Part shown: piece after piece, positions 31,087-59,312 of the stretch | How positions within the stretch are numbered: the first letter of the stretch is position 1 | Layout of the letters: each line of letters begins with the position of its first letter | DNA from: Styela clava | Lineage: Eukaryota > Chordata > Ascidiacea > Stolidobranchia > Styelidae | NCBI RefSeq assembly: GCF_964204865.1 | Contig: NC_135255.1 | Span: 10,383,135 to 10,447,134 of the forward strand | Reading direction: 5' to 3' | DNA: 64,000 nucleotides | Position numbers and translations under genes: made by a program | Notes under the pieces: generated by a model | Told to the model about the DNA's origin: nothing | Database searches by the model: none | Seen by the model: the letters and a program-made list of their open reading frames with translations, nothing else

Positions 31087-32334
31087 CACATGCTTCCATC
31101 TTCAAGCAATTGACGCAGTGGTTGTGATGATAAGCAATTTTGAACAGCAGCAATTATTTAGCGAAACAATTCAATTCATCATATATATTCACTTCATGTA
31201 CAAAATTAGTATGTGTGGAATTTATACCACAACATTATGGGAAGTACCTTTGACTATTTAATGTAATAATGTGGCAAGTGTTGTAAATCATCTAGATACC
31301 TTTAGCCATGCGTAAACGGAATTAACAAAGGTAGAATTTTCCAGTGCAGCAGTTCGAAATTTGTTGTGACAACAACATTCTGTATATATTATATAACATT
31401 TAAAAAATGCAAGCATATTTTATTTCAGTTTAATTTACAAATTGGCTCAAGATTTCAATCCAAGCCCGCAAAAACAATGCTGATCAAATATCATGTTCTA
31501 TAACGAAGCTGATCATTGATATGTATGCATATATATTTGTCTTCTGATTTATTCTTAAACGTTAAATCCTTAGCTATCTACTACTCTACTACTGCTGATT
31601 CGTCAAACTATTAAAAGTTTCTCTCCATATAAGAAGCAAATAAACCATATCGAGTTGTACTTGAGTGCATGGCTCATTAACTGCTCGTTCATGCTCCAAA
31701 GAAAGCAACAACAATCCGAGGCGTTTTGTCGTCGTTACCTAATGCTGAAAAAGCTGATGCTGTTACATTCAAGTTTATAGAATATTTACGATTTGGTACC
31801 TCTTTGCATACATATTACTTCTGATTGCTGCAACTCAGTTTTCATTCTGAAGAAATATATATATATACCACATATATCGCAACCATGTTGCAAAAAGTGA
31901 TGATGATTTGATTTTGAAGCTAAACGGTTTTGGCACTAGTTTGTATTCTGCAGTCCATAATTTTGGCAAAAATTAATTATTTCTCCCTAATTTCGAAACT
32001 GGATATAAACAACGTTTATCGATTCTTCACGCCAAATGCTCAAAAACTATCTAATTTTCTAACGTGAATATACATAGCACATGCAGCAATTTTGTTATGA
32101 AATCAGTTCTCAATATATATCAACCAGGATTGTTGTTTTCAATCAAATGTTCTTCAAGTATTTTTACTTCATTTGATACATTTGTGAGGGCCTGAACAAT
32201 ATATGGTATCGATGAATTCCTTTGCAATTTTAAAAAATTTCAAGACTTTATGGATACAAGGTTTGTTGAATAGGATTGTGTTATTAATTAGCTTTTTTAA
32301 TTAGCTCTCTTAGCGCATTCCAGCTGCGCAAAGT

Positions 32335-33513
32335 TTATGCTGTTTCACTCTTCTCGATGGGTATTTCGGAAAGAAGAATGGTTGTTCCACAAACAATAAA
32401 TTCAGCGTCTATTATAGGAAACTCCCAAACGGTAGCTTCAGATTCCGTTGTATTCAATTCCAAATCCCCGTCATCTTGTGGACCATGAATGTATTTGCTG
32501 TTGTCAGTGCACTGGATTGTAACTCCTGATCCCGATGAAGTATGTTTGAATTTTCTGTTTCGACACAAAAATACTGGTTACTTCGTTTGCTATTATAAAA
32601 AATATAGTTACTAGCCACAACAATTATAAAAGTCTTACGCCGCATTGCTGGAATCTCCAAAAACTAGTTCTTTAGTGATGTGACAATTGCCGGACGAAAA
32701 TTGAAATATGTGGCCGGTACTGGGTGTGATTGTCCAATACTGTGTCGCACTGGTCTGTACTTGTTGAACAGGATAGTTATTGACAGGACCAGAAGATAAC
32801 CATTTCTTCGATTCGGTACCATGTTTTATTTGTGCGCTATACGATGACGCCAATCTGAAAAAGAAAACATAGGATTGGATTGATTAGTATCGAAGACTTT
32901 CGGATTCAGCCCGAAACAACTTTCTTCCACCAGCTTGCAGTAACATAGTGAAATTGCTGTAAAACAAAAAACAATTCTATGCAAATTATCTCCATGTAAA
33001 AACTACATTTAAAAAATCGAATCGTTTTGAAAATTGGTGATCGTTTTAAATGTGAAAATGCAGTCATTAGTGTTACTTTTGTATTTATTTACAAAACTCA
33101 TATAGGTAAATGAATAATATTCTGTTTTTCTATCACAGAACAACGAATATTTACATTCTCTTTTCGCTTTGCTTTTCCATCGGGTATTCCATTGTGACTT
33201 CATTATTGCTTTCATTCATGTTGTAGGTTACATAGAGTAATCCATCTGCAGAAGGCGAGGCAAATGTCCAAATCGGCTCCTTTTGTGAAGATGTTCGATC
33301 TATTTTCCAAAAATGATTTTTAATTGAATCATTCTTGACTCTAATATGACCATGTTTTTTTACAAATTTATCTCGGATCCATTTGTTGTAGTTTTTGTCG
33401 CTAATCTCGAATCCTGATTGTTCCTCGCTTTCACTGCAGCCTTGATCATTTCCTTTGTTAGAAGTCACGGATTTGTTAGTTATCCTGCCTAATCTCTTGC
33501 TGAACCATTCCAT
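32335..33513 (-). pseudogene. Repeat-protein family copy 1, exon 2 truncated
   Basis: Exon 1 is 33513-33155 (119 codons, starting MEWFSKRLGR). Exon 2 starts at 32956, but its 3' half is deleted and fused to the end of intron 2, reaching TAA at 32886-32884. Exons 3 (32854-32639) and 4 (32554-32335) are intact with good splice sites. As it stands, exons 1-2 would give about 143 aa. The family protein, pieced together from exon logic, has repeats of the form (K/R)(Y/W)(L/I), then a Gly and spaced hydrophobics, ending W-x-(I/M). This resembles the repeats of fascin-type beta-trefoils, though no homologue was recognised. No signal peptide is evident. Exons 3 and 4 are well preserved, so the damage may be recent or the 3' exons may be used otherwise. 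Confidence 0.65.
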
Positions 33514-33618
33514 GATTATTTTAAATTGACTACTTCAAACAGAAAATATCTACTTGAAAAAAAAAGTAATACTTTTGTTAATACTTAATAATATTACCGT
33601 TCATGGAAATAACGACTG

Positions 33619-33626
33619 TATATATA
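33619..33626 (-). promoter_or_regulatory. TATA-like box upstream of copy 1
   Basis: TATATATA on the minus strand about 110 bases before the ATG of copy 1. It is preserved at the same place in copy 3, which suggests the promoter was part of the duplicated block. Confidence 0.45.
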
Positions 33627-34029
33627 AAATAGGTGAATTGAATTTGATTCAAAAATTACAGTTTTGAAATTTTACTTTGAGAGTCTCTTATCCAATTATC
33701 CAACCGAGGAAAAAAATTCAATACATGTTCTAAAAATTCAAAACTCTTATCGTCAAGTGTTTACGAAAAATGAAGTGAATGGGTATAATTGAGGTATATC
33801 TTAACTTCATGGAAAGTACCACCGACTATGCAATATAATAACGTGTTATATTACCTATTGTAAAAATACCTTCAGTCATGCGTAAATAGAATGAACAAAC
33901 GTTAGAATAAATTAGCGCTGTCATGGATAACTCTGGGATTGATTATCGTTGTGGCAAAAACTTGCTGAGTACAATAATTACATTTACGAATGGCAAGAAT
34001 GTAAAGTTTAAGTTTACAAATAACCTGAT

Positions 34030-34329
34030 CTGTTCCGACACAAAAATACTGGTTACTTTGTTTGCTATTGTATATAATATAGTCACTAACCAAAACAATT
34101 ATAAATATCTTACGCCGCATTGCTGGAATCTCTAAACACTAATATTTAGTTATGTGACATCTGCCGGACGGAAATTGAAAAAATGTGGTTGGTACTGGGT
34201 GTGACAAACCAATTCTGTGTTGCCCTGGTTTCTACTTGTTGAACAGAATAGTTATTGGCAGGATCAGAAGATAACCATTTCTTGGATTCGGTACCATGTT
34301 TTATTTGTGCGCTATACAAAGACGGAAAA
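34030..34329 (-). pseudogene. Repeat-protein family relic (exon 3 and intron 3 only)
   Basis: Exon 3 is recognisable (YSAQIKHGTESKKWLSSDP) but has one extra T in the run at the HIFQFSSG position, which shifts the frame. Intron 3 and its acceptor CAG are present, but exon 4 sequence is absent and unrelated DNA follows. The intron upstream of exon 3 matches copy 2 better than copy 1. It lies 0.5 kb upstream of copy 1 in the same orientation. Confidence 0.75.
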
Positions 34330-35147
34330 CTGAAAAGAAACATAAGACTTTATCACATGAATCCACCGATATTGATAAATGATTGTCCGAGTGGATCTAC
34401 AAACTTATGATGCAAGGATGATGTGGCAAGACTATTCTAAGCTATTTAATCATCTTGCTACAGACTAAATCAAATGTATTTGTGTCACATTTTGTCACTT
34501 TCCACAAATTAAATAAAATTTTTAAGTTGTAGAAATGTTCAGTCGCAGAAATTGAATGGCATTGATATTTCAATCGTTGACTATATTCTGCATGTGCTTG
34601 TTATTTATTTTTTGGACACTCATTTTTTATAAAAAAGTACAACAGAAAATATCATGTCCTTATGTGGGTCGCGCGCAATCAGGTAGTTTGTACCCCATAA
34701 AGATCCACAGCCACAGGTATGGCATCGGGTAACACGAAAAACAGAACCCATAATTTTTGTTAATTACCTCTACTACGAAAATAAAAAAATAACTTTTCAA
34801 GGTTTTAAGAAAACTAGGACGCTTTGCACAAACGTTATGTTTTTTTTAGTTTATGTTCTAAATGAAATTGGCGTAGAATACAAATTTGCATATGTTGCGT
34901 GGAACTGTGAAACACTTACTTACTTTTTGCTGAAGCGCACTTTTTGCTTGTATGACATGTTTACTGGGACACAGTACCTCTGTCGGAAGCCTTATGGCTA
35001 GCTTCTGATGGCTCTCGTATACAATCTCTAATAATTATTTATCACTATTAAGATATTTTAGTTATATAATTCTGCAAAATTATACGATACTCACCGCCAA
35101 TAATAGTAGTGCCATAAATAAATTACCCGATTTTTTCAAATATATAT
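34330..35147. other. Spacer before the pogo-like element
   Basis: The first about 135 bases are intron 2 sequence of the relic. The rest has no recognised feature. Confidence 0.45.
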
Positions 35148-35149
35148 TA

Positions 35150-37998
35150 GGGGAGAGTGGGGCACGGTGGCCCATGGGGCACAGTGGTCCAATCCACTCA
35201 CTAGCGACACCGGTGGTCGTACCGGGCACGTGACCAAACTGAAAAAAGTCACGGTCAAGCCTGTTCTCTAGGAAATTTATTTGCGCCGGTAGGTCGTATT
35301 GGAAAAAGTTAGGAGACTTTCGTTGTTTTTAGGTGGCCAAAGTAAAAATAAATTGCCGGAGTTTTTTCTTCTAAACTGCAGCCCGCATGACTTTTGTCGC
35401 CCATATTGGCATGCCAGGTAGGTGCCCCACAGTGGCTTATGACGGGGTATAAGATAGATCGGCACTCTAGCCTACTTGTCGTGAGAGGGTCAATTATCCC
35501 AAAATGGTGGGCTTGGGCACAGTGGGACATCAACCACGAGTACACACTGGGACGTGTCCCACTGAACCCCTCCACAGCTCTGTAGGGTTTGAGGGACCTA
35601 GAGTAGCCTACCTTCTGTCCCCGCTCCTGCTTGCTAGTTGCAATGTTGGATTATCTTCCTATTTCAGAGCAATGCTAATTGATTTAAATAAACAACTAGC
35701 AAAATGCCACGTAAAAGTAAAAGAAAAACCTCCATAGGACAGATCGATCCATTGGTAATGAAGAGAGCAGCGGAGCAGGTGATTCATGAAGGCAAAAAAC
35801 TGCGTACAACTGCAAGAGAAAATGCCATTCCCAAAACAACCCTATCAAGGTACGTCAAAAAACTGAAGTTTATGTCAGAAAGTTCTGTGTCCGACTCAGC
35901 GCCCTCAGATAGCCTCGAGTATTTTCGTCCTAACTACACGGTAAGAAGAATATTTTCGGATGAGGAAGAAGGTGAGCTTTCGAGTTATCTGCTACAGGCA
36001 TCCAGACACCACTACGGGCTTCGAAAAGACGAGGTTCGAGAGCTAGCGTATAAAATGGCAGTTAAAAATGGAACAAACATTCCGCGGTCATGGGTTGAGA
36101 ACAGTAGGGCAGGAAGCGACTGGCTGTACGGATTCATGCAGTGTCATTCTAGACTCTCTCTGCGCAAACCAGAAGCCACAAGTTTGTCGAGAGCTACCAG
36201 TTTCAACAGGAAAAATGTTGGCGAATTCTTTGATAACCTTGATTCCGTAATGAAGCGTAACAAGTTTGAGCCAAATTCCATATATAACATGGACGAAACC
36301 GGGTTAACTACCGTTCAAGTGCCGTCCAAGATCATTGCCGAAACAGGTATAAAGCAAGTGGGAAAGATTACTTCGGCCGAAAGGGGACTTCTTGTGACAA
36401 TGATAGGAGCAGTCAATGCACTAGGAAACTCCATACCTCCGTGCTTCATTTTTCCTAGAGTCAACTTCAGAGAACATATGCTGAGAGGTGCGCCACTTGG
36501 TGCAGCTGGGTTTGCAAACAAATCTGGTTGGATAAATTCAGAAATCTTTCTTTCATGGATGAAACATTTCGTAAAACATGCAAACTGCACACCTTCAACT
36601 CCCGCACTATTATTAATGAACAACCACAAGAGTCACATCACGATTGATTCTCTCAATTACGCAAAGGAAAATGGTCTGGTTCTCCTCACATTTCCACCCC
36701 ACTGTAGTCACAAACTACAGCCTCTGGACAGGTCAGTATACGGGCCGCTGAAACATTACTACAATAACGCCGTTGGTGCGTGGCTAACTCTTCCAGAACA
36801 TGCAGGCAAAACTCTTACGATATACGATATCGCCGGAGTTGCTAAAACAGCATACATTCGTGCGTTCACGCCTGAAAATATTCAGTCGGGATTTCGGGTG
36901 TCTGGAATATTTCCGTTTGATCGAGATATATTTGGCGACCATGAGTTCTTGTCTTCCTTTGTTACAGATCGCCCAGAACCAAAAGAAGATGATAGCGAAG
37001 AGTGTCAGGCTGCGCCAAGCAACGCCGATGTAAGCTCTTTGCCTGGGACCTCCGGCACTACTGCACATTTCTCACCAGAAGATGTCAGACCGTTCAACAA
37101 AGCCTGTCCGCGAAGAAAAAAGTGTGGGAGAAAGAGCTCAAAGACGCTTGTTCTCACGGATACGCCGGTGAAAGAGGCTTTAACAGCTAAATTGACTAAC
37201 TCACAATCCAAAATCAAAAGCTCTAAGAAGAACCCCAAGCGAAAGAAGGCTGCGGCACCTGCTGAAACGAGCAGTGATGAATCATCTGTCCCCTTGAATG
37301 ACGATAGCGATCTGGAAAGTGAAGTTGATTCCCGTGTAGACGATAGTGTAGACCGGGTGGCAGCTGTGGGGGATTTTGCCATTATTAAATTCAGTAGAAG
37401 GCGTGGTGAAAACGCGTTGCATTACGTCGGTAAAATTCTTGACAAGGACGACGACGAGAAGGAATTTGAAGTTATATTTATGCAAAGAATCCCGTCGAAA
37501 GCAACAAATTCCGCTTTTGTTTTCCCCGAAGATGAAGAAAGCACATTCGGGCTGGATGAAGAAGATGTAGTCTGTCGCCTTGAAGCTCCAGTTAAAGTTG
37601 GCGGCACGGCAAGAGCTTCCAGACACTACCGATTTAGTGAAGATCTCACACAATGGAATATCCAGTAGGTTTGAAGGACGAATAAGGGCTCGATATTTTA
37701 GCGAAATTTCTTTCCTGATGGTGTTTTGTTCTTTATAAATTATTTCCTTCACAGTGTCCCACTGTGACCCAACCACCGTCCCACTGTATACCGACGTCGG
37801 GGCACAGTGGGACAAAATTTTTTTTTAAAAAAAACTGGCTCACAGGAAAAATATTCCCATTGAGCAAATTCTTTGGTAGGAAATAAAAAGTTCGTTTCTC
37901 TTACAATGTAGTCATATGCTTTAGAAGTTGAAATAGCGTAGTAAATAGTTCGAAAATCGCCAAAGAAAAAATGAGGGCCACTGTGCCCCACTCTCCCC
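35150..37998 (+). mobile_element. pogo/Tigger-like DNA transposon, 2849 bp
   Basis: Inverted repeats of 24 bp (35150-35173 and 37975-37998, one mismatch) start GGGGAGAGTGGGGCAC. They are flanked by TA on both sides, the pogo/Tc1-mariner target duplication. Inside the ends the motif GGCACAGTGG or GTCCCACTG recurs in both orientations (near 35178, 35516, 35557, 37754, 37782 and 37801), as expected for subterminal transposase-binding repeats. One ORF fills the centre. Ends, spacing and ORF are all preserved, so the copy looks fairly young. Confidence 0.95.
35704..37668 (+). CDS. pogo/CENP-B type transposase, 654 aa, second catalytic Asp replaced
   Basis: Residues about 14-55 form a pipsqueak-type helix-turn-helix (AARENAIPKTTLSRYVKKL-like). 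About 80-165 is a CENP-B-type DNA-binding region with SLRKPEATSLSRATSFNR. About 190-400 is the DDE_1 catalytic domain. The first Asp is in YNMDETG (D197) and the third in LQPLDRSVYGP (D342). Where relatives have an (L)DNHxSH motif, this protein reads MNNHKSH, so residue 306 is Asn. The spacing to the third Asp is 35 residues. The tail is Lys-rich then acidic, followed by a C-terminal domain around VGDFAIIKF and HYVGKIL that I associate with such transposases. The family cuts and pastes DNA at TA sites. This copy should lack or have very low catalytic activity unless the Asn is tolerated, yet the frame is otherwise uninterrupted. DNA binding may persist. Confidence 0.95.
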   Translation: MPRKSKRKTSIGQIDPLVMKRAAEQVIHEGKKLRTTARENAIPKTTLSRYVKKLKFMSESSVSDSAPSDSLEYFRPNYTVRRIFSDEEEGELSSYLLQASRHHYGLRKDEVRELAYKMAVKNGTNIPRSWVENSRAGSDWLYGFMQCHSRLSLRKPEATSLSRATSFNRKNVGEFFDNLDSVMKRNKFEPNSIYNMDETGLTTVQVPSKIIAETGIKQVGKITSAERGLLVTMIGAVNALGNSIPPCFIFPRVNFREHMLRGAPLGAAGFANKSGWINSEIFLSWMKHFVKHANCTPSTPALLLMNNHKSHITIDSLNYAKENGLVLLTFPPHCSHKLQPLDRSVYGPLKHYYNNAVGAWLTLPEHAGKTLTIYDIAGVAKTAYIRAFTPENIQSGFRVSGIFPFDRDIFGDHEFLSSFVTDRPEPKEDDSEECQAAPSNADVSSLPGTSGTTAHFSPEDVRPFNKACPRRKKCGRKSSKTLVLTDTPVKEALTAKLTNSQSKIKSSKKNPKRKKAAAPAETSSDESSVPLNDDSDLESEVDSRVDDSVDRVAAVGDFAIIKFSRRRGENALHYVGKILDKDDDEKEFEVIFMQRIPSKATNSAFVFPEDEESTFGLDEEDVVCRLEAPVKVGGTARASRHYRFSEDLTQWNIQ

Positions 37999-38000
37999 TA

Positions 38001-41000
38001 CAAACTTTGGGTGTCGTTTCTCGATAACATGATAAGGTACCAAGGCCCAACAACCATCATGTGGGTGACAGCCTAGCTAGCCTCGACTAAGATTTCGTTG
38101 AGAATTTTAAATTTAACCAGGTACTGAACTTGTTGGGGGACATGTAATATGAAAATTAAAACGAATGCAAACGTACCGGTGCCCGTGGCAGTTCAAAGAC
38201 TGAACAACGCAATGAAAATGATGTCGCAATGAAACAAGAGAGCTACGCCCAAATATATGGATACGTCTGTTCGCAATACAATACGGTTTACCGTACCGTC
38301 AGATCACAGTCTACAAATATATTCACACCAAGCGAAGCAGTTCAGTAGGACACAAAATGGCGTCCGATGTCCGCAGAACGTTCAATGACGTCATAGCAAC
38401 AAAAACAAATCTCACAGAGCTAACAGAAATATTTAAAATGAATAAAAGTAATAGCCTTCTGGAGAAAAATTTCATCTTTAACCACTACAAATTTCAAAGC
38501 AATTGGTCCAGTGATCAAAGAGAAAAGCGGTTTTTTAATATTTCCACTAGATGTCCAAAAAGTGTCAAAGAAGAACAAGAACAACATAACAACAAAACGA
38601 TCGTTATGTCCACTAAACGTGTCCAATAACCAGATACGCAACAATGAACAGATCGGAATAGTTGCCGGTGCTATAGTTGAAATGAAAATAATCTATGATG
38701 TTTGACAGATTACAAAAACCATTTGGCAAAAAACTTTATATTTGTGTAGAACTGCTTTTGGTTGATACCTATTTGTTTTTTCGTCTCGCGGAACACCAAG
38801 ATACAAGATGGTGGAACTGATAATGAAAAAAGGTGTAATGTATTCACTTTCTGCATCAACTTGCAAAACCGGGTTTTTACAGAGTCTTTCGAGGCTTACA
38901 GTTTTAAGTTAACAATCCATTAAGAAGGGTGGTTTCCAAAAATTTAGTCTAAATTTGACAATTAAACATTAGACCGTCCGTCAATGATATTGAACCGTTA
39001 ACGAAAAGGCCATGCTCTACAAACTGACACGGGGTCTCTCAGCCTGTTTAGATAGCAAGGCCTGCCTGCCTGTTTGTCGCCAGTTTGGAGACGACTCAGA
39101 GTGCAATGGCGACCTATTCCTGTCCCGCGGAACACTCCGAAGAAACTCGAGTAACAGCAGTGTTTCACCGAACGCAGTTTGAGAAACACAGTAGAAACTC
39201 TATAAATATAACTTGTAAATGCCCTAATCCGTTCCAAGCTGCCACAAAACTCGGACATAATGTTTGTATTCATTGTAATAATGATTAAAACCCATAAAAA
39301 ATACATGTTGAAATTAGATTACTGCATATAGTGAATAGAAAAGGTACACATGGGAAGAAAAAATCATATGAACAACGAATAAAAACTACTTACGGTATAT
39401 TTGTTTTCATTCGGCGTTGGCCAACTAGGCTAAGCGGAGATGGTGGATAGTGGGAGGACGGCGGTCGCAGAAAGTGAGAGGAGGCGTTTGGCAGCTAAAA
39501 GAGAATGCAATGTACGAAAATGAGCACACGCACGTGAAATTCAAAATTAGAATTTACTTTATTACTTCCTCACTTTATTTTGCTTTTAATTCTTTTTATT
39601 TTTTTTTCATTTCAATATCTTTTGTTTCAACTATTACGCGTCTCCTCACTGGATTTCGGGCTTTCATTTTTAAATTTGCTCACGAAACCTTTTCACGATT
39701 CAGAAAACGCAAATGTTATTGCGCGATCATCGTCATAATCAAACGAGTGAACTCGATTAATGTTGGAGGATTTAGAAAGGAAATCGTGTTTTAATTTTCG
39801 AGTCGGCGCGGATTTTAATATTTCATGTCGGCAGTTATGATTTTATTTTTGGTTATAAATTAATACCGTCAACTTAAACTGAACGATATTGTCATAAAAG
39901 ACGCCGGTATAACGATAAAATCCGCGATAGATACTAAATAATATTTAGGAGCAATTTTATACGCTCCAAATAAAATATTTTCATTCAAAAACATCCTTAC
40001 GTTGTTATAAACACTTTCAGTCGGAGCCAATTGAAATCCTTTCATGTCGACTGTAATTTATTGTCCCGTCGCACACGGCTGCCTTTGATTGCGATAAAAA
40101 ATGAAATAATTGTACAATGTTTTAAATCAAAACGTGGACCGCGGCACTAGGATATGTGCGCCATATTCGGTATTCGTATAAACACAAAAAACGATATTCG
40201 AAGGTCGAACTATTCGAAAATTCAATTCAGACTGGACATCTCTGCATCGAGCACTACAATAAATTAACCTAAATTAAAGAAATATCACTACACACGTTTT
40301 TTGTTTTCGGTTTTCAGCCTTTCGTATGTAGCAAATCTTAAGTTGGTCGAAGCAATATTTTTACGAAAAGAATTTTTGTAAGCATACATTATTTTTAAGG
40401 TTGAAGGGATTGAGATTTTCAAAGTTATACAAATTCATTTATTCGACTTCATTCCAATTTTTAATCTTAAATCGGTAAAAATATGAAATTATTACCCTGA
40501 ATGAAAAAATATGAGATCTATAAAGTTTAACTGACATTATTATAGAACAAGCCTTTACAATTTAAAACGATATAAAATGAATAATAGTTTAAAATTGATT
40601 GTCGAGGTTGGGGCCCCTAGGCTGTAGCCTATCTTGAATAATGGTTTATCCGGCCCTTGTTCGATTCCCATGAGGAAAGTGACAATGTGAGGGATTGTTG
40701 GACTTCTTGTTAATGTCTTGTCGGTTGCATCTTCCTCCGCCAACCACGATTGCGGACGCATTGCACTGAGGCTTGAGAAGGCGTGTATTGGCAAGTTATC
40801 GATATGTGTGGCATTTCGAGAGGTTTATTGCGAATAAGAAGCAATTGGCAATATTTTATATCCATTTTTCTCGTTTTAGTTAACCTATTTGATACAAAAA
40901 TATGAAATAATACAGCTATTTTAAACAAAACAGGCAAAAAAACTTGATCTAAAACAATTATTTTAAAACAATTCTTTTTTAATTAATTCCTATAACTTTA

Positions 41001-41036
41001 AGCATCAATTCCTATTCATGTACTCTAGATTAGAGT
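38001..41036. other. Repeat-rich spacer without a supportable gene
   Basis: A 90-aa frame at 38357-38629 and a 114-aa frame at 39450-39794 have no known motif. The first lies in sequence that reads like transposon debris. A hAT-type remnant lies at 38755-39195. The rest, including 40600-40800 with a possible tRNA-like B box (GTTCGATTCCC near 40657), is unassigned. Confidence 0.4.
38755..39195. mobile_element. Decayed hAT-type element
   Basis: The right end, reverse-complemented, reads GTGTTTCTCAAACTGCG, a classic hAT-type terminus. Facing it near 38788 is TCGTCTCGCGGAACACC, and CCGCGGAACACTCC recurs near 39125, as is usual inside such ends. The left tip is diverged and no duplication could be defined. 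Confidence 0.45.
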
Positions 41037-42963
41037 CTACACTTTCTCGCCGTGATAAGGAATTCCGGAAAGCCATATTATATTGGTTGTTCCAACAACA
41101 TTAAATGCAGCGTCTGTTACAGGAAACTCCCAAACAGTAGCTCCAGATTTCGCTGTATTCAACTCCAAATCCCCGTCATGTTCAGGACCATGAATGTATT
41201 TGCTGTTGTCAGTGCATTGGATTGTAACTCCTGATCCAGATTGGTTATATATGAATTTTCTGTTTCGACACAAAAATACTGGTGACTTCGTGTACTATTA
41301 TATATATATAATATAGTCACTAACCACAACAATTATAAATATCTTACGCCGCATTGCTGGAATCTCCAAAAACTAGATCTTTAGTGATGTGACACCTGCC
41401 GGACGAAAATTGAAGAATGTGGCCGGTACTGGGTGTGATTTTCCAATTCTGTGTCGCACTGGTTTGTACTTGTTGGACAGGATATTTATCGACAGGACCA
41501 GAAGATAACCATTTCTTGGATTCGGTACCATGATTTATTTGTGCGCTATACAATGACGGGAAACTGAAAAAGAAACATAATATTTTATCACAAGAATCCA
41601 CCGATATTGATAAATGATTGTCTAAGTGGATCTGCAAACGTATAATGCAGGGGTGAGGTAGCAATACTATTCTGAGCGATTTAATCATCTTGCTACAGAC
41701 TGCCAACAGCCACTGCCCATAGTTAAAAATTTATTGCTAAAAATGATTACTAAAAATGCGCGGAGGCCAACAGTTTGCCTCTGACTTCAACGATGTAGAG
41801 CAGGGTTTCGCAATTTGTTTTTTCGTCTTGACAATTGAAAATTGTTGTTGTTGTTGTTATATGTTTTATGGTGCTTACAACTTCAGTGGTCTTTTGCACC
41901 TTTGATCAATTCAAATTCAAAAATACTAAAATAACATATAATACAATATTTACGAATATATAATGATACAATTGAATCAATTACAATAAGTAATTATTTC
42001 TAAACATTTCTGCCCGTAAACAAAACAAATTCGATAACAGTGTCAATAATGTCCATGTTACTAAGCACTTCGTCCAAAGTCATTTCCAATTTAAGTTTTC
42101 TGGCTTTGCTAATGACTTCCGTATTCCATTTTATTTTGTATCAAAATATGATTTTGCTTCTGAGACGGAAAGTGGCAGGATTGCATCAAGGGCCGACGGT
42201 CGATGATATTGAACGGTCATCGAGAAGGCCGTGCTGGATTTATAAAATAACAAAAAAAAAAATCACTACCTTGCTATAGCAATAACTCGAAATATGGCTA
42301 ATTGATTCACAAATGTTGACAAATTTACTAATCGATTCCTGTTTTATTTTGGAAATATGTGACTTCATTAACACATTTTACTTGGTGTTTATGTAGTATA
42401 CTCGAAACAACAGCACTCATTTGGCTTGTGACTAAGTGATCAAACAGTGTAGTCGCTCGCCTAGCTTTGGGCATTGGAATAAAATTGTTGAGACTCGTAC
42501 TTGACTCAAGATTTAAACCTTGGGATCGAAAATTGGTGGGCATCGGACGGGCGTACCTTCAGGTGAATTAAGAATTTAATATACTGAAAAGATGGCTTTT
42601 ATATTGGAAAGCAAGTATACCTTGCTTTTATGACTTCGCTCTTTACCATTTTTTTCATTTTGACTGTATTATCAGTTACGTCCAAACTGTAGATTACGTA
42701 GAGTAGTTGTCCATCTGCAGAAGGCAAGCCAAATTTCCAACTTGGCTCGTCTAGGGTAGTTGTTCTTTCTATTTTCCAAAAATGGTTCTTGGTTGAATCA
42801 TGTTTTACGCTAATGGGATCATTTTCTTTCACAAATTCATCTTTAATCCATTTGTTGCCGCTTCTGTCTCATTTCCTGATTCGTTGTCGCTGGCGCGTTG
42901 CTCGACTTTACTTTTAGGAGCCACAGCTTCATTTTTCTTACCGCAACATCCGAAAAGACACAT
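41037..42963 (-). pseudogene. Repeat-protein family copy 2, exon 2 missing
   Basis: Exon 1 is 42963-42621, exon 3 is 41563-41348 and exon 4 is 41259-41037. Exon 1 begins MCLFGCCGKK, unlike the MEWF/MSWF starts of copies 1 and 3, then joins the family sequence at GNKWIKDEFVKEN. A one-base deletion near 42864 breaks the frame there: exon 1 is 343 nt where 3n+2 is needed. No exon 2 was found in the about 1 kb between exons 1 and 3. Exons 3 and 4 are open and very close to the other copies, with the same 216-nt exon 3. An extra splice (acceptor GACAG) could in principle bypass the frameshift. Confidence 0.65.
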
Positions 42964-43066
42964 CGTTTATTATATTTATTGCGCTGAGGAAAGAATAACT
43001 ATCAATCAACACAATGTTAAATTGACGTATTATGTTATCAATAATCGGTATTGCCAGAAGTTAAAC

Positions 43067-46836: not shown

Positions 46837-46839
46837 GCA

Positions 46840-49124: not shown

Positions 49125-50312
49125 GACTTCGATCGCCAATATCTGAGGGATGGGTGAGGTAAATCGAATTTTCTCAATAAAGTCAGGTAAATTGATTCAC
49201 ACTCATTAGTTTAAAGCTCAGTACAACACAATAGGGAAAAAAGAGTAAAAACAAAAGAATAGATGCCGATGATTGAGATATGCATTCCGTCACAAAGTAA
49301 CAAAGTAACTCAATGACATCACAATAGAAAACAGGACGCTTTCGAAATAAAAGAATAAAAACAATAGCAGGTGTGTAGTCCATAGGCAGAAGCAATCAAA
49401 TGGAAATAGAATATACCATCAGTATGTCAACATTCAATCCAACTTATAGTAGTAGAAAGGCTGACAGTATCGATAACTGCCTCTTATTACAAGGATAGGA
49501 TTTACATATCTATCTCAGTGGAGAGGAAAGCCAATAAAACGACTTAATCATTTCCTTCGATTTTTCCTGTCAGATGCCCGTAATTGATGATAGAGGAAGC
49601 CGTGACCTACGAACGATAACCTGAACCACCCTACGGCGAGGAGTCCATCCCCTTGCACATAATCATCCCCCACGGGATTCTAACCTGGGAACCACGCAGG
49701 GTAATCAGGTGTACCATGGCGAGCGTATTCCCAACACTTAGCACAATGTGGCACACCGCCACTGTTTGTCGTTCATGGACTACATACTAACGAAAGCTTA
49801 TAAAAATGACAAATTGTTGGTAGAAAAAATGATATATATTTCTAATATGTAAATGAGTTAAGATGAAGACAATTATCATTCATTACGTAGGTCCAAAACG
49901 TGATTGAGATTGAATGACATTACAGAAAGCTTCGAGGTGGGCGAAAAAGTTTTCAGAAAATTTCTTCTCGAAAACTGACGTTTGCGCGAATGTAATTTTG
50001 CGAGAATAGACTTTTGAAAAAGTACAAGAGAATAGAAGGTCTGACGGTACTACAAACCACATTCTCGTGAAATAACCTGAACCGAGATACGATGGCGAAT
50101 GTTCAAACTTGTAAATTTAGCCCATAATACTGCGATACGAACCTCACACACTCACTATTTATATACAAAACGTTGTATTGCAAAAAGGATATACATAAAT
50201 TTTGAAAATGCAAATGCGGCTATTGCGAGGGAGTAGGGATTTCTGGAGTCATATTTCCAATTACTCAAATTTGGGCGTGAAATTAATACACTCCCGCATC
50301 CGTATTATTCGG
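49125..50312 (-). repeat. Right arm of a 1.19-kb inverted repeat pair
   Basis: Reverse complement of the left arm at 43475-45050 without its MITE. It includes the SINE at 49490-49790. The outer tip ends at GTATTGTT, directly next to the 50-bp tandem array. Confidence 0.8.
49490..49790 (-). mobile_element. tRNA-derived SINE copy
   Basis: Minus strand: TGCTAAGTGTTGGGAATACG (A-box zone), GGTTAGAATCCCG (B-box zone), GATTATGTGCAAGGGG, GGACTCCTCGCCGTAGG. It ends with the shared AGATAGATATGTAAATCC tail. Confidence 0.65.
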
Positions 50313-50324
50313 ATTGATTTCGTA

Positions 50325-50574
50325 TTGTTACTTATCGATCTCGACCGGTAAGTATGTTGATAAGTATTTGTCCCTTGTTACTTATCGATCTTGATCGGTA
50401 AGTATGTTGATAAGTATTTGTCCCTTGTTACTTATCGATCTTGACCGGTAAGTATGTTGATAAGTATTTGTCCCTTGTTACTTATCGATCTCGACCGGTA
50501 AGTATGTTGATAAGTATTTGTCCCTTGTTACTTATCGATCTTGATCGGTAAGTATGTTGATAGGTATTTGTCTG
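50325..50574 (+). repeat. 50-bp tandem repeat, five units
   Basis: Five units start TTGTTACTTATCGATC at 50325, 50375, 50425, 50475 and 50525, with only a few substitutions (for example TTGATCGG/TCGACCGG). The near identity points to recent expansion. Each unit has TATCGAT and an internal CGATC..GATCGG inverted motif. Confidence 0.95.
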
Positions 50575-51069
50575 TTTTTCTGTCTGTAAGATGCACGCGA
50601 TATCTCACGGGAGCGAGGTTGAATCTGCTCCAAATTTTGCATGTGCTCGGACCAGAAGTCTATTGATATTGGATGGATTATGTCGTATAATTGGCGAGTT
50701 ATTAATTAATAAGTGATGAGACACGCGGTGTTGCTATTGAGTCAAAGCGAAGGAATCGAAACCGTAGATCGATAAGTCGGTGGTCATCGATCGATATCTA
50801 GTTACTCATCGATCTCAATGAGAGGTATTTGTCTGTTTGTTTCACATTCGTATGTTACGCGATATCTCACGAAAGCGAGGTTAAATCTGCTCCAAATTTT
50901 GCAAGTGCATTCATCATATCTCGGACCAGAAGCCTATTAATTTGGATGAATTATGTCGTATAAATAGCGTGTTATTAATTAATTAGTGATGGGACACGCG
51001 TTGTCGCTATTGAGTCAGAGCGAAGGAATCTAAACCGCAAGATCGATAAGTCGGCGGTCTCCGATCACT
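50575..51069 (+). repeat. Two tandem copies of the GATATCTCAC repeat
   Basis: Two successive copies of about 240 bp, each with CGCGATATCTCACG, TCTGCTCCAAATTTTGCA, GGACCAGAAG, ATTATGTCGTATAA, GTTATTAATTAAT and GATCGATAAGTCGG. A third, inverted copy is at 45560-45945. Confidence 0.85.
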
Positions 51070-51071
51070 AT

Positions 51072-51492
51072 CTAGTTTACTACAGTCGGTACAATTTGAA
51101 ACGATGTTTCGAAAAATTTAGGAAATTTTTATTTCGAGAGTGTCTGCTATATCTAAATTGTCATTCACGGCTTGTTTGAAAGAGGATGTTGAATACAACA
51201 CACTGAATTAGCAATTCGTCTATATCACTACTCAGTACAATTTAAAGCGATGTCTCGAAAATTTTCATTTCAAGAGTGTCTGCTATATCTAAATTGTCAT
51301 TCACGGCTTGTTTGAAAGAGGATGTTGAATACAACACACTGAATTAGCAATTCGTCTGTATCACTAGCTTGTCTACTACAGTCGGTATAATTTGAAGCGA
51401 TGTCTCGAAAATTTTCATTTCAAGAGTGTCTGCTATATCTAAATTATCATTCACGGCTTGTTTGAAAGAGGATGTTGAATACAACACACTGA
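51072..51492 (+). repeat. Tandem repeat with 137/150-bp period
   Basis: Three units contain GAGTGTCTGCTATATCTAAA starting at 51137, 51274 and 51424. Each ends with GGATGTTGAATACAACACAC. A partial unit reappears at about 54156-54220, on the far side of the long inverted-repeat element. Confidence 0.9.
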
Positions 51493-52018
51493 CCTTATTC
51501 ATTAAAAACCCATCCTACGCGCAAAATGAAAAGTGATGTAAAAAAAACAATTTTAACATTAGCTCTTATGGGGAAAGTGATCACCAGAGCAGAAATTTGC
51601 ATTTTTTGTTATTTTCTAGATATCTTTCATTGTATACGTGAGCAGTTTTGAGGATAGAATATTTTTTACATCCTTTTTGATATTTTTATCATGATAAATA
51701 TGGTCAAGATTTTTGAAAATCGTTCATTGAAATTCTTATGAGCGCGGTGTTTCCGATGACGTCATTCTCACTAGACCATGAGATTCTGCCAACACGCCGT
51801 GCTCTGTGGGATATGCGCTCCAACTGCTTGTGATAACAGAATACTAGTATACCGGTACCGCGACCACAACTGGCGCTCAACGAAAGACCTATTTTGGTTT
51901 TTATATATTTCATGAATTCCATGTAACTATGTACATTTCTGGCACACCTTTCAGAATCCAATGGCCTAACTCAGTTCATATGTTGACACCATGTACCTAT
52001 CCCAAAATTGGTGATGTT

Positions 52019-52401
52019 CAGGGTTGGATTTAGATTATGAGAGGCCCCTTCATATTTTTGAGCTCAGAATTTCTCTCTAAACAACACCACATGTCATTGC
52101 TTAAAATCTAAAAATATGAGTGCATTAAACTTTTCATTCTCCCTTTAACATAGAAACTTCCAGCAAAATGCGCATAATAATAATTTCCCTTTTATGATGC
52201 AAACGACGCAATAATGGCTGTTTACAATGTGGTTGAAACCAGTTGTGTACAGAATTTTCTACTCTGAAAAGCTTGATATATATATATATACTTTTCGTAG
52301 AGTTTAAACTTGTCAAGTTTTCAAAAGAATTACAAACTTCGAAACCAAATTTCGAGGCTCTAGGTTTCAGCCTGCCTAGCCTATTGGTAAATCCAGCCAT
52401 G
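52019..52401. mobile_element. hAT-like MITE, 383 bp, nested
   Basis: Ends are CAGGGTTGGATTTA and (reverse complement) CATGGCTGGATTTA, 12 of 14 identical. The flanking 8-mers are GTGATGTT (52011-52018) and GTGATGGT (52402-52409), one mismatch. It has AGAGGCCCC and GAGGCTCTAGG-type subterminal sequence and no coding capacity. Confidence 0.8.
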
Positions 52402-52409
52402 GTGATGGT

Positions 52410-53279
52410 CCCTACAGCAAATTTCAGGCCCTAATCACTCAGCAAATTGGAATAAATGGTTTCCAGCATTTATTAGCAAAGATAGATATTTTAACTAAAA
52501 ACATATAGTTCCTGTATAATGATATTATAAATATATGTCCCATTATTACTGCATTGTGAGAAGGCTTTCTACACTATCAAGTCTATGAGGTTTTAGCGTC
52601 TTCCAATGTCTCAGATGGAAACTTCAGTCTTCATTTCGCATATTCTTTTCATTAATGCCATTAGCATTTGAAGCTTGACTGATTCCAATGTACCTTTTCC
52701 ATTGTTGTTTAATGTAATATCCTAAACGTGACTTCAAATTTTTTTCTCACTTCAATCCTCACATGTTTGAATACCCGAGCTGACTTCTACTGATTTGTTA
52801 TTAATTTACAGTTTTCTTTTTATAAATTAACTGTCGTACTTGCTGAGTGTCCACTAAGTGAAAATCTACAAAAAAATCAGTGGTTTAATAATGGACTACA
52901 TTTCTAACCGAATCAAAAAATATTCCGTAACTTAGTCAACCCTTCCTCCAAGGAGATTTTGTTAAATTGTTCAAACATTTTGATTAACTGTTAATCTTGA
53001 TAGCGAACATGGGGGGTTATACCGAATAACTGTGTGTTTTGTATATAATTTGTATTGATTCAATGCTTGTATTCTGGTTGACGAAATAAATCTTTCTCTC
53101 GTATTCAGTCATGTTTTTTAACCTAGTTAGGAGACCGGTATTGAACCAATATAGGTTGGAGATATTCATCTATTTTGTATACCGGTACCAACGACTAACA
53201 TACCGACCGGTACCGTACAACTTATCCTGCCTATTGGCAGGCTGGCCAACATTTTTGTTCGTAGGCCTATTTCAGTATT
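52410..53279. other. AT-rich interior of the long-TIR structure
   Basis: No gene or repeat recognised apart from ACCGGTACC-rich sequence around 53180-53220. Confidence 0.4.
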
Positions 53280-53590
53280 AGGATAGGATTTACATATTTA
53301 TCCCGGGGAGAGGAAAGCCGATAAGACGGCTTATCCATATGGCGAACCACGGCCTCTCGTCCGGTTACCATTCCAAGTCGGTTATGGGATTAGTTATATT
53401 GTTTGTTTTCGGAAGCATGGACTTGGTGGTGGGGGAAGCCGTAACCGACCAGCGGTTACGTGAACCACCCAACGACAGCGAGGAGTCCAGCAATCCTATC
53501 GCACATAACCATCCCTGCATGAGATTCGAACCTGCGAACCCACGCAGAGTAATTAGAGGTGCGGTGGCGGTCTTGCAGCCACACCTCTTG
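53280..53590 (-). mobile_element. tRNA-derived SINE copy
   Basis: It contains GGATTCGAACC-type B-box sequence (AGATTCGAACC near 53523), GAGGAGTCCAGCAAT, AAGCCGTAACCGACCAGCGG and the tail AGGATAGGATTTACATAT seen in the other copies. Open frames across it are not genes. Confidence 0.65.
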
Positions 53591-54581
53591 CCTCTCCACA
53601 CCTCTTGCAGCCTTGGTACGGTACCGTACCGGTAGTTTAAATAACACGTCAGCATGCCTTCAGTAAATGATTGCTAGCTGTACAGGTATAAATGCGTAAA
53701 ACCAGTAAACAAACGTGATAGAAATGGTATGGGTTATAGATTGTCAATGTTAAACGCTTCCAGTGCCGGTACTGTACCCAAAGCGACATTAGCGCCACTT
53801 TGCAGCGCATATTCATAGTCACTTTGATCCCACAGAGCACGGCGCGTTGGCAGAATCTCATGGTCTAGCTAGTGAGAATGACGTCATCGGAAACACCGCG
53901 CTCATTAAAATTTTAATGAACGATTATCAAAAATCTTGACCATGTTTATCATGATAAAAATATTAAAAAAGATGTAAAAAATATTCTATCCTCAAAACTG
54001 CCCACGTCTACATTGAAAGATATCTAGAAAATTACAAAAAATGCTAATTTCTGCTCTGGTGATCACATCCCCATAAGAGCTAATGTTAAAATTGTTTTTT
54101 TTACATCCCCTTTTTTTTTGCGCGTAGGGTGTGTTTTTAATGAATAAGGTCTCTTGTTTACTACAGTCGGTATAATTTGAAGCTACGTCTCGAAAATTTT
54201 CATTTCTAGAGTGTCTGCGACGAAAGGAAGTCTAGACTAGATATCTCTGTCTAGTAATTACGCTCGCAAGTCGACTAAGAAAACTTTTCGATAGACACCT
54301 AAGTGGTGTTTCTCGCGTATTTGAACGGCGGGGAATAACTCTTTATGGGAGATGTCAATCGTTGCACAGATTTGCGGGGGACATTGAGATAGTCAGTGGT
54401 ACTTTCCATGATGTTAAGGTATACTTGAACTATACGCATTCCTTTCATTTTTCGTAAACACTCAACAACAAGTTTTTCAGTTTTTTGAACAGAAATTAAA
54501 TTTTCTTCCACGGTTGGATAAGGGATTCTCGAAGTAAAATTGAAAACTGTAATTTTTGAATCAAATTCAATTCACCTATCT

Positions 54582-54590
54582 TATATATAC
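54582..54590 (+). promoter_or_regulatory. TATA-like box upstream of copy 3
   Basis: TTATATATA about 95 bases before the ATG, with the following CAGTCGTTATTT sequence conserved in copy 1. Confidence 0.45.
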
Positions 54591-54681
54591 AGTCGTTATT
54601 TTTGTGAACGGTAATATTTCATGTATTACTTTTTGTTCAAGTAGGTATTTTTCTGTTTGAAGTAGTCAATTTAAAATAACC

Positions 54682-57570
54682 ATGTCATGGTTCAGGAAGA
54701 ACTTAAGCAGAAAAACTAAGAAATCCGTGGCTTCTAACAAAACAAAAGATCAAGGCTGCAGTGAAAATCAGGAACAATCGGGATTCGAGATTAGCGACCA
54801 AAACCACAACAAATGGATCCGAGATGAACATTTGAAAGAACATGGTCATATCAGCGTCAAGAATGATTCAAGTAAAAATCATTTTTGGAAAATAGATCGA
54901 ACATCTTCACAAAATGAGCCGAGTTGGACATTTGCCTCGCCTTCTGCAGATGGACAACTCTATGTAACATACAACATGGATGAGGAAGTCACAATGGAAA
55001 AGCAGGGCGAAAAGGAAATGTAAATATTCTTTGTACTGTGATAGGAAAACATTACATTATTTATTTACATATATGAGTTTTGTAAATAAATATAAAAGTA
55101 ACACTAATGACTGCATTTTCACATCTCAAAACGATCATCAGCTTTCAACACGATTTGTTTTTTTTAATGTAGTTTATACACGGAGATACTTTACAATATA
55201 GAGCAGCGTTTCCCAACCTTTTTTGGTCGCGGACTATTTTCACACCGGCGAAAATCTTTGCGGACTCAACGTGTATTTATTGCAATCGTACTCTGTGTGA
55301 AGAAGTAATAAACCCAAACACAACGGAGTTTTAACAAATTTCAAAATTGGAAATTCGCCGCTATCACGCGTTTGCTAAAAGAGACGACTTTTTTAGTGTA
55401 TATATGGCCTTTTCTGTCGAACAATATTCAATCCATGACAACAACAGAATTTAAAATGTCTTTCAATTTTAAGTTAATTGTGTTCATGGTCACTCGCGGT
55501 TGCGCCGATTTATGACAAGATGGAAGCATTACTTTTTTAAAATGCCACGGCAATCTGCGAACATAATAATCTGAGAGGATATTGCCCGATTATATTTAGT
55601 TTTGATATATATTTTTTGCGATCTAGCGAATTTGGTATCGCCGTTAGAAAAATCCTACTATCTGCTATAAATTTCCAGAAAGTACAACTTGATTTAGTAC
55701 TTATTAAAAATATATTTAAAGTATATTAGTAAATCGAAAAAAAAATATTCATCGCCTTGCTTTAATATTAAATTAATTTTGATCATTTTAATTTGCGGTT
55801 GTGTTGGCGAAATAAAAGCAATACTACTCAGAAACGATCATGACAATTCGTGGACACAAAAATGCGCGGTAATGTGCGCGATTATATTTTGTTTCGATTC
55901 GTATTTTTGTGAATTCGACAAATCTGAGCTGTTCGTACAACACTTACGGCGCTCCAGTACTGTACGTACTAATGTGGAGGCGATAAAGCAAAGAATCCCA
56001 AGGGAAAATGCCCTGATACGTATACTACAGTAGAACCCGAAATTTGGCGATTTGCAATGTCTAAAAAAGCGTTTTTAATCGGTCGCGCACCATTATAAAA
56101 CAAAACTTATGGTGTTCTCCGTTTTATTTTTAGTTTTTTGTATTGCCGCTCTCCAATTAAGAAAACATTTATACCTGCAGCAAAAAAAATTATTCCTCGT
56201 TGTACGAGCTCGCGAGAAACACCACTTAGGCATCTATCCAGGCGTGTGCCGACTCGTGTTTTCGCCTGAAATCTGCAAGTGAGTTGTGAAATCCAACCGT
56301 TTGATTAAGCGACGCTCAAGTGACATGTCGCGTCAAATTTTCGAATATTAAATTGCTATTCTAATAGTTGAATATTCGAATATATGCCCAGCCCTACTCA
56401 GTATCCAGTAATTATTGACTCCATTAATGTTATGTGAATAAACTTGCTTTTTATGTTTTATATAAATTTTAACGTAAATCGTAACTTGACTGATGGGTTT
56501 CGCAAAGACGTTTGCGGCCCGCAGTGTATTTATGACTCGTTGCGGACTCATTTGAGATCGCAGACTCTGGTTGGGAAACATTGATATAGAGTCAGTTCAT
56601 TGCATAGAGTTGTTTTTTGTTGTACAGCAACTTCACTATGTTATTGCAAGCTGATGGAAAATTGTTGTTTCGGGCTGAGTCCTCGCCCAACCGTTATCTT
56701 GTGCAAAATCGAGAAGGTCAATTAGAGATGAAAACAACCGACAATCCAACTGATGAAATGGAATGGATGATCAGCTATATCGAACCGTCATTGGAAAAAC
56801 CGAGGCAAGAAGTTTGGCTATAACTCACGCTGGGCCATATTTACTTCAAACAATGGCGCCTTCTTATTTTAATTCATTTTTTAATTTTCCAAACGATATA
56901 TATATACCATTGATCCCAACCTATAGAACGTCCAAACTTACTCACAGCGGTGTGGCGACTATTGGAAATTTTTGGTTCATAAACATAGTTTACGATTCAT
57001 ATGAACAGAGTCTTTGATACTGATCAATCAAATCATATGTTTTTCTTTTTCAGTTTGGCGTCATCGTATAGCGCACAAATAAGACATGGTACCGAATCCA
57101 AAAAATGGTTATCTTCTGGTCCTGCCAATAACTATCATGTCCAACAAGTACAAACTAGTGCGACACAGAATTGGACTATCACACCCAGTACCGGCCACAT
57201 TTTTCAATTTTCGTCCGGCAGGTGTCACATCACTAAAGATCTAATTTTTGGAGATTCCAGCAATGCGGCGTAAGATATTTATAATTGTTGTGGTTAGTAA
57301 CTATATTATATATAATAGCAAACGAAATAACCAGTATTTTTGTGTCGAAACAGAAAATTCGAATCTACCAAATCGGGATCAGGAGTTACACTCCAATGCA
57401 CCGACAACAGAAAATACATTCATGGTCCAGAAGATGACGGGGATTTGGAATTGAATACAGCGAAATCTAAAGCTACCGTTTGGGAGATGCCTATTAAAAA
57501 CGCTATATTTATTGTTTGTAAAAACATCCTTCTTTCCGAAACACCCATCCAATTACCCATGGATGTCTGA
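54682..57570 (+). CDS. Repeat-protein family copy 3, most complete copy
   Basis: Exons: 54682-55019, 56628-56774 (ancestral end) or 56786, 57054-57269 and 57354-57570. Phases agree throughout and give about 305-309 aa. Exon 2 encodes ADGKLLFRAESSPNRYLVQN, then EMEWMI. Exon 3 has SAQIRHGTESKKWLSSGP and exon 4 has GVTLQCTDNRKYIHGPEDDG. The repeated pattern (aromatic-Leu/Ile, G-x-L-x, W-x-I/M) looks like fascin-type beta-trefoil repeats. That is an inference, and no named family was recognised. The ancestral donor after ATGATCAG reads CTATAT, whereas the relic at 59427 keeps GTATAC. An in-frame but weak donor (GTCATT at 56787) could replace it and add four codons. Otherwise translation stops at 56823 (about 178 aa). 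Intron 1 holds a 1.38-kb hAT-like insert. AATAAA lies at 57830. Confidence 0.65.
55204..56583. mobile_element. hAT-like nonautonomous element, 1380 bp
   Basis: Ends are CAGCGTTTCCCAACC and (reverse complement) CAATGTTTCCCAACC. A perfect 8-bp duplication ATATAGAG lies at 55196-55203 and 56584-56591. The interior begins GGTCGCGGAC and ends with TTGCGGACTC, GCGGCCC-like sequence. An 84-aa frame at 55779 has no transposase motif. Inserted into intron 1 of copy 3; absent from copy 1, so it came after the duplication. Confidence 0.95.
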
Positions 57571-59312
57571 AGTTGGTTTTATGGCCCACCGACAAAAAAT
57601 GTTGCCCACCTCTGTTCTATTTCATTATATGGAGTAATATTCGCGTATATATTGTATATTTCTACGAAATAATTGATTGGTGGTTACAGAGAAAGTTAGA
57701 TATATATATTTGTATTTTTCGTCAATAGGAGTCGTCTATTTGGTCATTTTAGTGTGCTATTCAAGACCGTGGTTTTGTGAAAATGAGTTGTCAATTAGTG
57801 ACCATGAATATTGTGACCTTGTCATATCCAATAAATACAACCAAATGCTGCATGTGCTGAGTATATTTACGTTGCAAAATTAAATAGTTTTTGAGCATTT
57901 GGCTTGAAGAATCGATAAACGTTGTTTTTATTCAGTTCCAGAATTAGGGAGGAATAAATAATTTTTGCCAAAATTATGGAATACAATAATTTTACTTACT
58001 ACTGAAAAGTGGCATCCACGTGAGGTACTTAATACAAACTCGTGCCAAAACCGTTTAGCTTCAAAATCAACTCATCATTACTTTTTGCAATATGATTGCG
58101 ATATATTATATGTGGTATATCTCTACAACAGAATAAAAACTGAATTGCAACAATCAGAAGTATTATGTATTAAAAGGTTATAAATATTCTACAAACTTGA
58201 ATGTAACAGCATCAGTCTATTCAGCGTTAGGTAACGACGACAAAACGCGTCGGATTGTTGTTGCTTTCTTCGGAGCACGAACGAGCAGTCAATGAGCAAT
58301 TTGCTTCTTATATGGAGAGAAACTTTTAGAGTTTGACGAACCAGCAGTAGTAGATTAGTAAGTATTTGACGTTTAAGAATAAATCAAAAAACAAATATGA
58401 ATAAATATCAATGATCAGCTTCGTTATAGAACATGATATTTGATCAGCATTATTTTTGCGAGCTTGGATTGAAATCTTGAGCCAATTTGTAAATTAAACT
58501 GAAATAAAATATGCTTGCACTTTTTAAATGTTATATATATGTATATATACAGAATGTTGTTGTCACAACAAATATCGAACTGCTGCGCTGAAAAGTTCTA
58601 CCTTTGTTAATTCCGTTTACGCATGGCTAAAGGTATCTAGATGATTTACAACACTTGCCACATTATTACATTAAATAATCAAAGGTACTTCCCGTGATGT
58701 TGCGGTATAATTCTACGCATTCCAATTTTGTTCATGGAGTGAATATGATGAATTGAATCGTTTTGATAGATTATAACTGTTGTAAAAAATTTCTTATCAC
58801 CACAACCCTTGTGCTAATCTAATTGATTTCAAATTTGCAATGCTTAAAGATGGAAGCAGTCGCTATTACGATATCTTATTTTTCCTTTGAATCTTACGTG
58901 GCCTGATATCTACCCCAAATATTTCAGGCGAACAATTTACATAAATTATGGAAACATTTTTACATAATGTTTGACTGTCGTGTCCATATTATCCAACATC
59001 GCTTCCTCGTGTCACAAATGGTTGAATCCCGAGTCTTTGGTAAACAAGCTACTTGCACCAAGCGATTGCTGAACACGACTAGGAACTCCTGGGACACTAG
59101 GAAAAAGTAGTTAAAACAGCAATATTTTGGATTGTCGAAGGTTAATTCAGGATATAAATTTAGGGATTAAATTCACATATATATTTCCTAACATACGCCC
59201 GTAATTTCTCTAACCGTGTCGTGTCCTATGCATTGTTGGAAACAATAAGATTTTATTATCCGTAATTTCTAATCAATTATTTTCTGTCTGAAGTATTAAA
59301 TTTAAAACAACC
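57571..59312. other. 3' flank of copy 3
   Basis: Up to 58866 this is duplicated sequence shared with 31087-32334. The remainder has no recognised feature. Confidence 0.5.

Follow-up and report, generated by a model that had tools for sequence, protein, structure and literature searches.

An uncharacterised, expanding gene family of the tunicate Styela clava that may encode cytosolic proteins with two fascin/hisactophilin-like domains

Introduction

What kind of protein is encoded by a small gene that recurs within 28 kb of the Styela clava genome, and are its copies still genes? We addressed this question in a 64,000-nucleotide stretch of contig NC_135255.1 (assembly GCF_964204865.1, positions 10,383,135 to 10,447,134; "the window" throughout), for which an earlier prediction, made from the letters alone, had described three larger copies and two relics of one four-exon gene. 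That original prediction saw in the protein a recurring residue pattern suggestive of fascin-like beta-trefoil repeats, could name no family, and proposed a search for further copies in the genome. Such a search now gives about 27 copies, counting relics, at seven sites spread over five contigs, and from their sequences we consider it an evenly balanced call that they form an uncharacterised and expanding family of ~300-residue cytosolic proteins with two fascin/hisactophilin-like domains.

Results

A four-exon gene family on five contigs

Repeat and profile searches recovered all three larger copies and both relics of the four-exon gene in the 28 kb. The larger copies are not equal: only copy 3 is intact, copy 1 having lost most of exon 2 and copy 2 being frameshifted. 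The four exons of copy 3 form an open gene of 315 amino acids (aa), and its splice sites are canonical apart from those of intron 2, which is GC-AG (exon end CCGAG, donor gcaag).

54682..55019, plus strand: copy 3 exon 1, beginning MSWFRKNLSRKTKK...; the first domain starts at FEIS
56628..56804, plus strand: copy 3 exon 2, followed by the GC-AG intron
57054..57269, plus strand: copy 3 exon 3
57354..57570, plus strand: copy 3 exon 4, with the stop codon

The paralogue on contig C14 has a GT donor at the position of this GC donor, and the GC form is also found in the copy at 18.99 Mb on C8. Copy 3 shares 24-64% identity with the models on C2, C8 and C14.

The whole assembly (376.6 Mb in 379 contigs) was searched with the exon peptides and two divergent members, and exon profiles were then run on the DNA of the loci. 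The following copy numbers are lower bounds.

C2, ~26.91-26.99 Mb: nine copies, one of them a lone exon-1 piece
The window: five copies, two of them relics
C6, ~8.48-8.51 Mb: four copies
C14, ~16.31-16.33 Mb: three copies, two of which, half-genes separated by 17 kb, may belong to a single gene
C8, ~8.75 Mb: three copies
C8, ~18.99 Mb: two copies, one of them a relic
C9: one copy

Because these exons are found again on other contigs, the repeats in the window are more than chance. Stop-free four-exon models were obtained for 11 members: copy 3 (W3), C14a, C2a-e, C6a, C6d, C8a and C8b. In the C2a and C6a models exon 3 is shortened and the donors are uncertain, while C14a exon 3 and C8b exon 4 come from hand-picked splice sites. 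Outside the 11 stand C2g, whose exon 4 is absent from the DNA examined, copy 1 with its skipped exon, and disrupted copies at C8 18.99 Mb, C8 8.745 Mb, C9 and C2 26.965 Mb; C2h, C6b, C6c and the partial C14 copies were left out of the models. Introns are in phase 2, with sites chosen by eye in five of the 11 models (W3, C14a, C2c, C8a, C8b) and the phase imposed by the modelling script in the remaining ones. A FastTree phylogeny of 13 models resolves three groups (C2 with the 8.5-Mb members of C6; the window type with C14; the 8.75-Mb members of C8), between which identity is 19-34% (matrix of 12 models, C8a left out).

The copies have spread by tandem and inverted duplication, and some decay. 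Within the C2 cluster, exon 2 of two members lies in opposite orientation with an identical peptide (C2:26975581-26975739 and C2:26988304-26988462), and this pair reads as another recent inverted duplication. In the C9 member, exon 2 carries a frameshift and the final exon passes into a long TCC repeat (L061, about 1940-2160).

Older paralogues are constrained

The ratio of nonsynonymous to synonymous substitution rates (dN/dS) was computed by the NG86 method on the 20 pairs with more than 45% identity. It is 0.14-0.33 in 11 older pairs, with dS saturated in many, and on these values we take the copies to be genes. Six recent pairs have values of 0.50-0.77 (0.66 for copies 1 and 3), three pairs gave no value, and copy 3 compared with the C14 copy gives 0.33. 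On these ratios the family is under long-run constraint at the protein level while fresh duplicates drift.

The same selection bears on whether the exons are part of a transposable element. In favour of this, the copies are dispersed and copies 1 and 2 are separated by a DNA transposon. Nevertheless we find this explanation highly improbable: the multi-intron structure and its splice sites are conserved, old paralogues are under purifying selection, Pfam gives no transposase match in nine members, the copies are clustered rather than scattered, and that transposon is an element of its own.

Each protein consists of two homologous halves

Exons 1-2 and exons 3-4 encode homologous halves of ~145 residues each (hhalign E 9.5e-7). 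With insert columns dropped, the halves align at E 1.9e-4 with a score of 31.4, whereas the highest of 200 column shuffles reached 23.3 and the reversed comparison 10.8; other member sets gave E 5e-5 and 7.9e-5. The recurring pattern noticed at the outset is real, and what it reflects is first of all the tandem duplication of one such half.

A reading of each half as three beta-trefoil repeats (A, B and C) is possible. Between the halves, A1-A2 is beaten by none of 40 shuffles, and B1-B2 and C1-C2 by one each; over all 15 repeat pairs tested, only A1-A2 and C1-A2 beat all 40. Since repeats of different type do not match one another beyond shuffles except for C1-A2, the threefold symmetry is not significant.

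A beta-trefoil fold is the favoured reading

Two known proteins resemble the halves. Fascin (PF06268) has four trefoils in ~490 residues, whereas family members have two homologous halves instead of four tandem trefoils. Single repeats of the family are similar, in register, to the fascin exons of this genome on C18: four of eight half-versus-exon comparisons beat all 86 decoys, the longer alignments hold one repeat register, and the best ones lie in the expected register in both halves. Hisactophilin (PDB 1hcd, 1hce) is a cytosolic, membrane-associated and His-rich actin-binding protein with one trefoil in 118 residues. It is the only PDB match of the second-half profile up to E 10 (1hcd, E 0.087, not significant), again in repeat register; unlike hisactophilin, the family has two homologous halves and no His-richness was noticed. 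In addition, the Pfam CCL2-like lectin, which we take to be a trefoil family, appears in two of nine members (best E 0.11).

The original prediction had suggested profile comparison with the fascin, FRG1 and IL-1 trefoils. This yielded the weak fascin-exon likeness, and none of these families, nor FGF, is among the Pfam families listed for nine members at E<=10, a listing whose filters drop most matches above E 0.1. Across the genome, PF06268 matches three places at E 0.001, all on C18 and none in the family.

A number of results weigh against a family of two-trefoil proteins. Searches of Pfam, NCBIfam and PDB sequences with family members and profiles gave nothing at E 0.001 or better, in agreement with the earlier view that no family can be named. 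The other four fascin comparisons were ordinary, with 6, 11, 13 and 69 of the 86 decoys at or above them, the decoys were not selected as beta-rich, and in a further test with 60 shuffles, 1, 12, 0 and 0 shuffles (first half) and 39, 18, 1 and 5 (second half) did as well. No single stretch of the hisactophilin match passes alone (i-E 12 and 110), full-length profiles have no match in PDB, and the only PDB match of the first-half profile is an uncharacterised protein (4g5a, E 0.44). Seven further Pfam families each appear in one of the nine members, two of them with better E than the CCL2-like lectin (best DUF7634, 0.039), so that such matches are at noise level. Just one of the 12 cross-type repeat pairs, C1-A2, scored above all 40 shuffles. 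Recent duplicates are perhaps weakly constrained (dN/dS up to 0.77). Structure prediction, likewise proposed as a check, was run with AlphaFold2 on shallow, window-only alignments and gave no usable fold. The predicted local distance difference test (pLDDT) was 35.8 for exon 3, an in-frame 84-nt intron read as residues, and exon 4 (alignment of five rows from the window; the intron part contained a helix), and 38.9 for exon 1 (three window rows), whose low-confidence model has strands only.

These results leave room for a two-domain fold of another kind, with the fascin and hisactophilin likeness due to chance or to convergent spacing of W, Y and G. The lack of a significant profile match, of a significant threefold repeat and of an AlphaFold2 fold all agree with it; the best fascin-exon matches, which fall in the expected register in both halves, and the sole PDB match of the second half, which is a trefoil, do not. 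We regard such a fold as quite possible, if not what we would expect. The fascin-like trefoil idea has thus gained modest independent support from the fascin exons and the hisactophilin match and is unproven as regards threefold repeat and predicted structure. On balance we lean towards a trefoil fold, and the two homologous halves are most likely all-beta domains with a beta-trefoil like that of fascin and hisactophilin.

The best sub-threshold match was to beta-galactosidase (E 0.0046 in NCBIfam, E 0.025 for Pfam PF02929). We rejected it: it is confined to the product of the exon-skipped copy 1, where it spans the exon 1/3 junction, and it scores 14.7 bits against cut-offs of 1221 and 25. 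In viral and prokaryote contigs, a family profile gave 58 and 69 pattern matches, respectively, none confirmed as a relative.

Some members have N-termini that would suit a membrane tether

The Cys-rich start of copy 2, MCLFGCC, is present (MCLFGCCGKK), and it is out of frame with the body of copy 2. It had been presented as an oddity, which it is not: C2 and C6 paralogues start with MSTFCGC, MSKFCGC and MSKFKCG, so it may be copies 1 and 3 that are derived. Cysteines combined with basic residues occur at the start of C2e (MSTFCGCIPIQSKKKK), C2g (from its second Met, MSKFCGC), C6a (MSKFKCGG) and copy 2. The first residues of copies 1 and 3 are W/F and basic, and C14a begins MSLFEW; C2c and C2d have one Cys and no basic residues, and C2a, C2b, C8a and C8b have neither. 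By eye, no signal peptide was seen. For some members only, we infer from the short Cys/basic or aromatic/basic N-terminus a possible tether to the inner membrane face; set beside the N-terminal lipid anchor and actin binding of hisactophilin, the Cys/basic starts of some members are only suggestive.

Two tunicate proteins invite comparison by description. The Botryllus histocompatibility factor is described as a cytoplasmic protein whose N-terminal cysteines affect its location and which has multiple intrinsically disordered regions (PMC12065747). It shares N-terminal cysteines with some members and differs in its disordered regions, since the family reads as strand-rich; we set it aside on that description, not by sequence. 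CIPRO37.40.1 of Ciona, which is described as testis-only and ricin-type beta-trefoil-like with a dN/dS of 0.618 (PMC3036616), is a tunicate trefoil-like protein and is likened here by description only.

Copies 1 and 3 lie in an inverted segmental duplication

As the original prediction held, copies 1 and 3 sit in inverted arms that include 5' and 3' flanks.

31120..33829, minus strand: left arm, copy 1 with flanks (blastn)
54389..58807, plus strand: right arm, copy 3 with flanks (blastn)

Within them, 32374-32867 and 57041-57534 form an inverted repeat with 90% identity over 494 nt. The right arm is longer (4.4 kb vs 2.7 kb) because intron 1 of copy 3 is ~1.4 kb longer and exon-2/intron-2 sequence has been lost from copy 1. 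Identity between copies 1 and 3 is 82.9-92.6% in exons and 84.6-95.6% in introns and flanks, a range that leaves out 57571-57842 (40.4%) and 58711-58900, which extends past the arm end (71.4%); the exons are no better conserved than introns and most flanks. The remaining copies and relics are as follows.

33155..33513, minus strand: copy 1 exon 1, open
32887..32956, minus strand: copy 1 exon 2 remnant, with acceptor, the remainder deleted into the intron 2 tail and no donor
32639..32854, minus strand: copy 1 exon 3
32335..32554, minus strand: copy 1 exon 4, with the stop codon
42621..42963, minus strand: copy 2 exon 1, beginning MCLFGCCGKKNE..., its frame broken ahead of the conserved KWI motif (start and frames computed, donor by eye)
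41348..41563, minus strand: copy 2 exon 3 (splice sites by eye)
41037..41259, minus strand: copy 2 exon 4 (acceptor by eye)
34029..34336, minus strand: relic, exon 3 with an in-frame stop, then intron-3 sequence
59399..59434, plus strand: relic, end of exon 2, a weak 12-residue match (profile E 0.003)

In copy 1, exon 2 is reduced to its first ~70 nt, which run into the intron 2 tail. The length of exon 2 is a multiple of three, so a splice from exon 1 to exon 3 keeps the frame, and copy 1 could join these exons. In copy 2, the frame of the ATG does not run on into the conserved exon-1 frame, and no convincing match to exon 2 was found between the exons (best tblastn E 0.5).

Are the window copies, then, mainly non-functional debris of a segmental duplication, with only the distant paralogues functional? 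The frameshift in copy 2, the loss of most of exon 2 from copy 1, the two relics and the equal divergence of exons, introns and most flanks between copies 1 and 3 would all fit. Copy 3, however, is open across 315 codons with usable splice sites and a dN/dS of 0.33 relative to the C14 copy, and copy 1 stays in frame if exon 1 is spliced to exon 3; we therefore hold the debris explanation to be rather unlikely.

The 3' flank of copy 3 at 58596-58722 resembles the 5' flank of copy 1 at 33777-33907 (68% identity), as if a further promoter lay between copy 3 and the 59.4-kb relic. That 3' flank is overlapped by 58389-58710, where the arms are best conserved (95.6%).

Other elements in the window and assembly

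The DNA transposon between copies 1 and 2 spans 35148-38000 (plus strand). Its ends carry an inverted terminal repeat of 26 nt (TAGGGGAGAGTGGGGCAC..., 96%), and its reading frame, open over 654 aa, encodes a DDE_1 domain (PF03184, E 1.6e-20); we take the element to be pogo/Tigger-like, and it is possibly recent. Tandem arrays lie at 50275-50629 (50-nt unit) and 51096-51492 (136-150-nt unit), and an inverted repeat of 204 nt (93%) at 51571-51774 and 53869-54072, 2.1 kb apart, could represent another inverted element next to copy 3. A bZIP exon at 2428-3414 (minus strand; PF00170, E 5.6e-10) reads to us like a Fos gene, and short exons at 62000-63260 (minus strand) resemble, by eye, a CHRAC1/POLE4-like histone-fold protein. 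Elsewhere in the assembly, an exon gave a match to Cellulose_synt (PF03552, E 2.2e-4) that narrowly exceeds the cut-off. TED and QRSRW, the latter presumably the QxxRW motif of cellulose synthase, occur in the frame of this exon. Among animals the enzyme is found in tunicates, so the exon points to a tunicate genome.

Discussion

We favour a role for these proteins as cytosolic, partly membrane-near two-trefoil binders of actin or of a membrane partner. The trefoil loops would bind a cytoskeletal or membrane-proximal partner, as in hisactophilin, two domains per chain would provide two binding faces, and duplicates would diversify and die in a process of birth and death.

The same process would diversify a defence or recognition family, whose members would be cytosolic lectin-like sensors. 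Tandem clusters, pseudogenes and the dN/dS of recent duplicates (0.50-0.77) are features such a family would have, and trefoils are generally known as a common lectin fold. Ricin-type beta-trefoil lectins (PF00652), possibly of the same fold class, match the genome at 12 places at E 0.001, all outside the family loci, and do not appear in the Pfam listing for the nine members; moreover, exons of copies 1 and 3 differ about as much as introns, which fits relaxed constraint equally well. We consider this explanation improbable, and likewise give little credence to the fuller picture of a two-trefoil, partly membrane-tethered cytosolic family whose clusters grow and decay as those of an immune or recognition family do, through repeated inverted and tandem duplication.

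For the favoured two-trefoil binder, the arrangement may differ from that of both fascin (four trefoils) and hisactophilin (one). We did not find a description of the family in the open-access literature, and relatives may already be listed elsewhere under the label of hypothetical protein. Taken together, some 27 copies in a chordate genome form a family with no significant Pfam or NCBIfam match, and their clusters, with pseudogenes among them, make it a candidate for lineage-specific tunicate biology. If the fold is right, the family shows how trefoils multiply.

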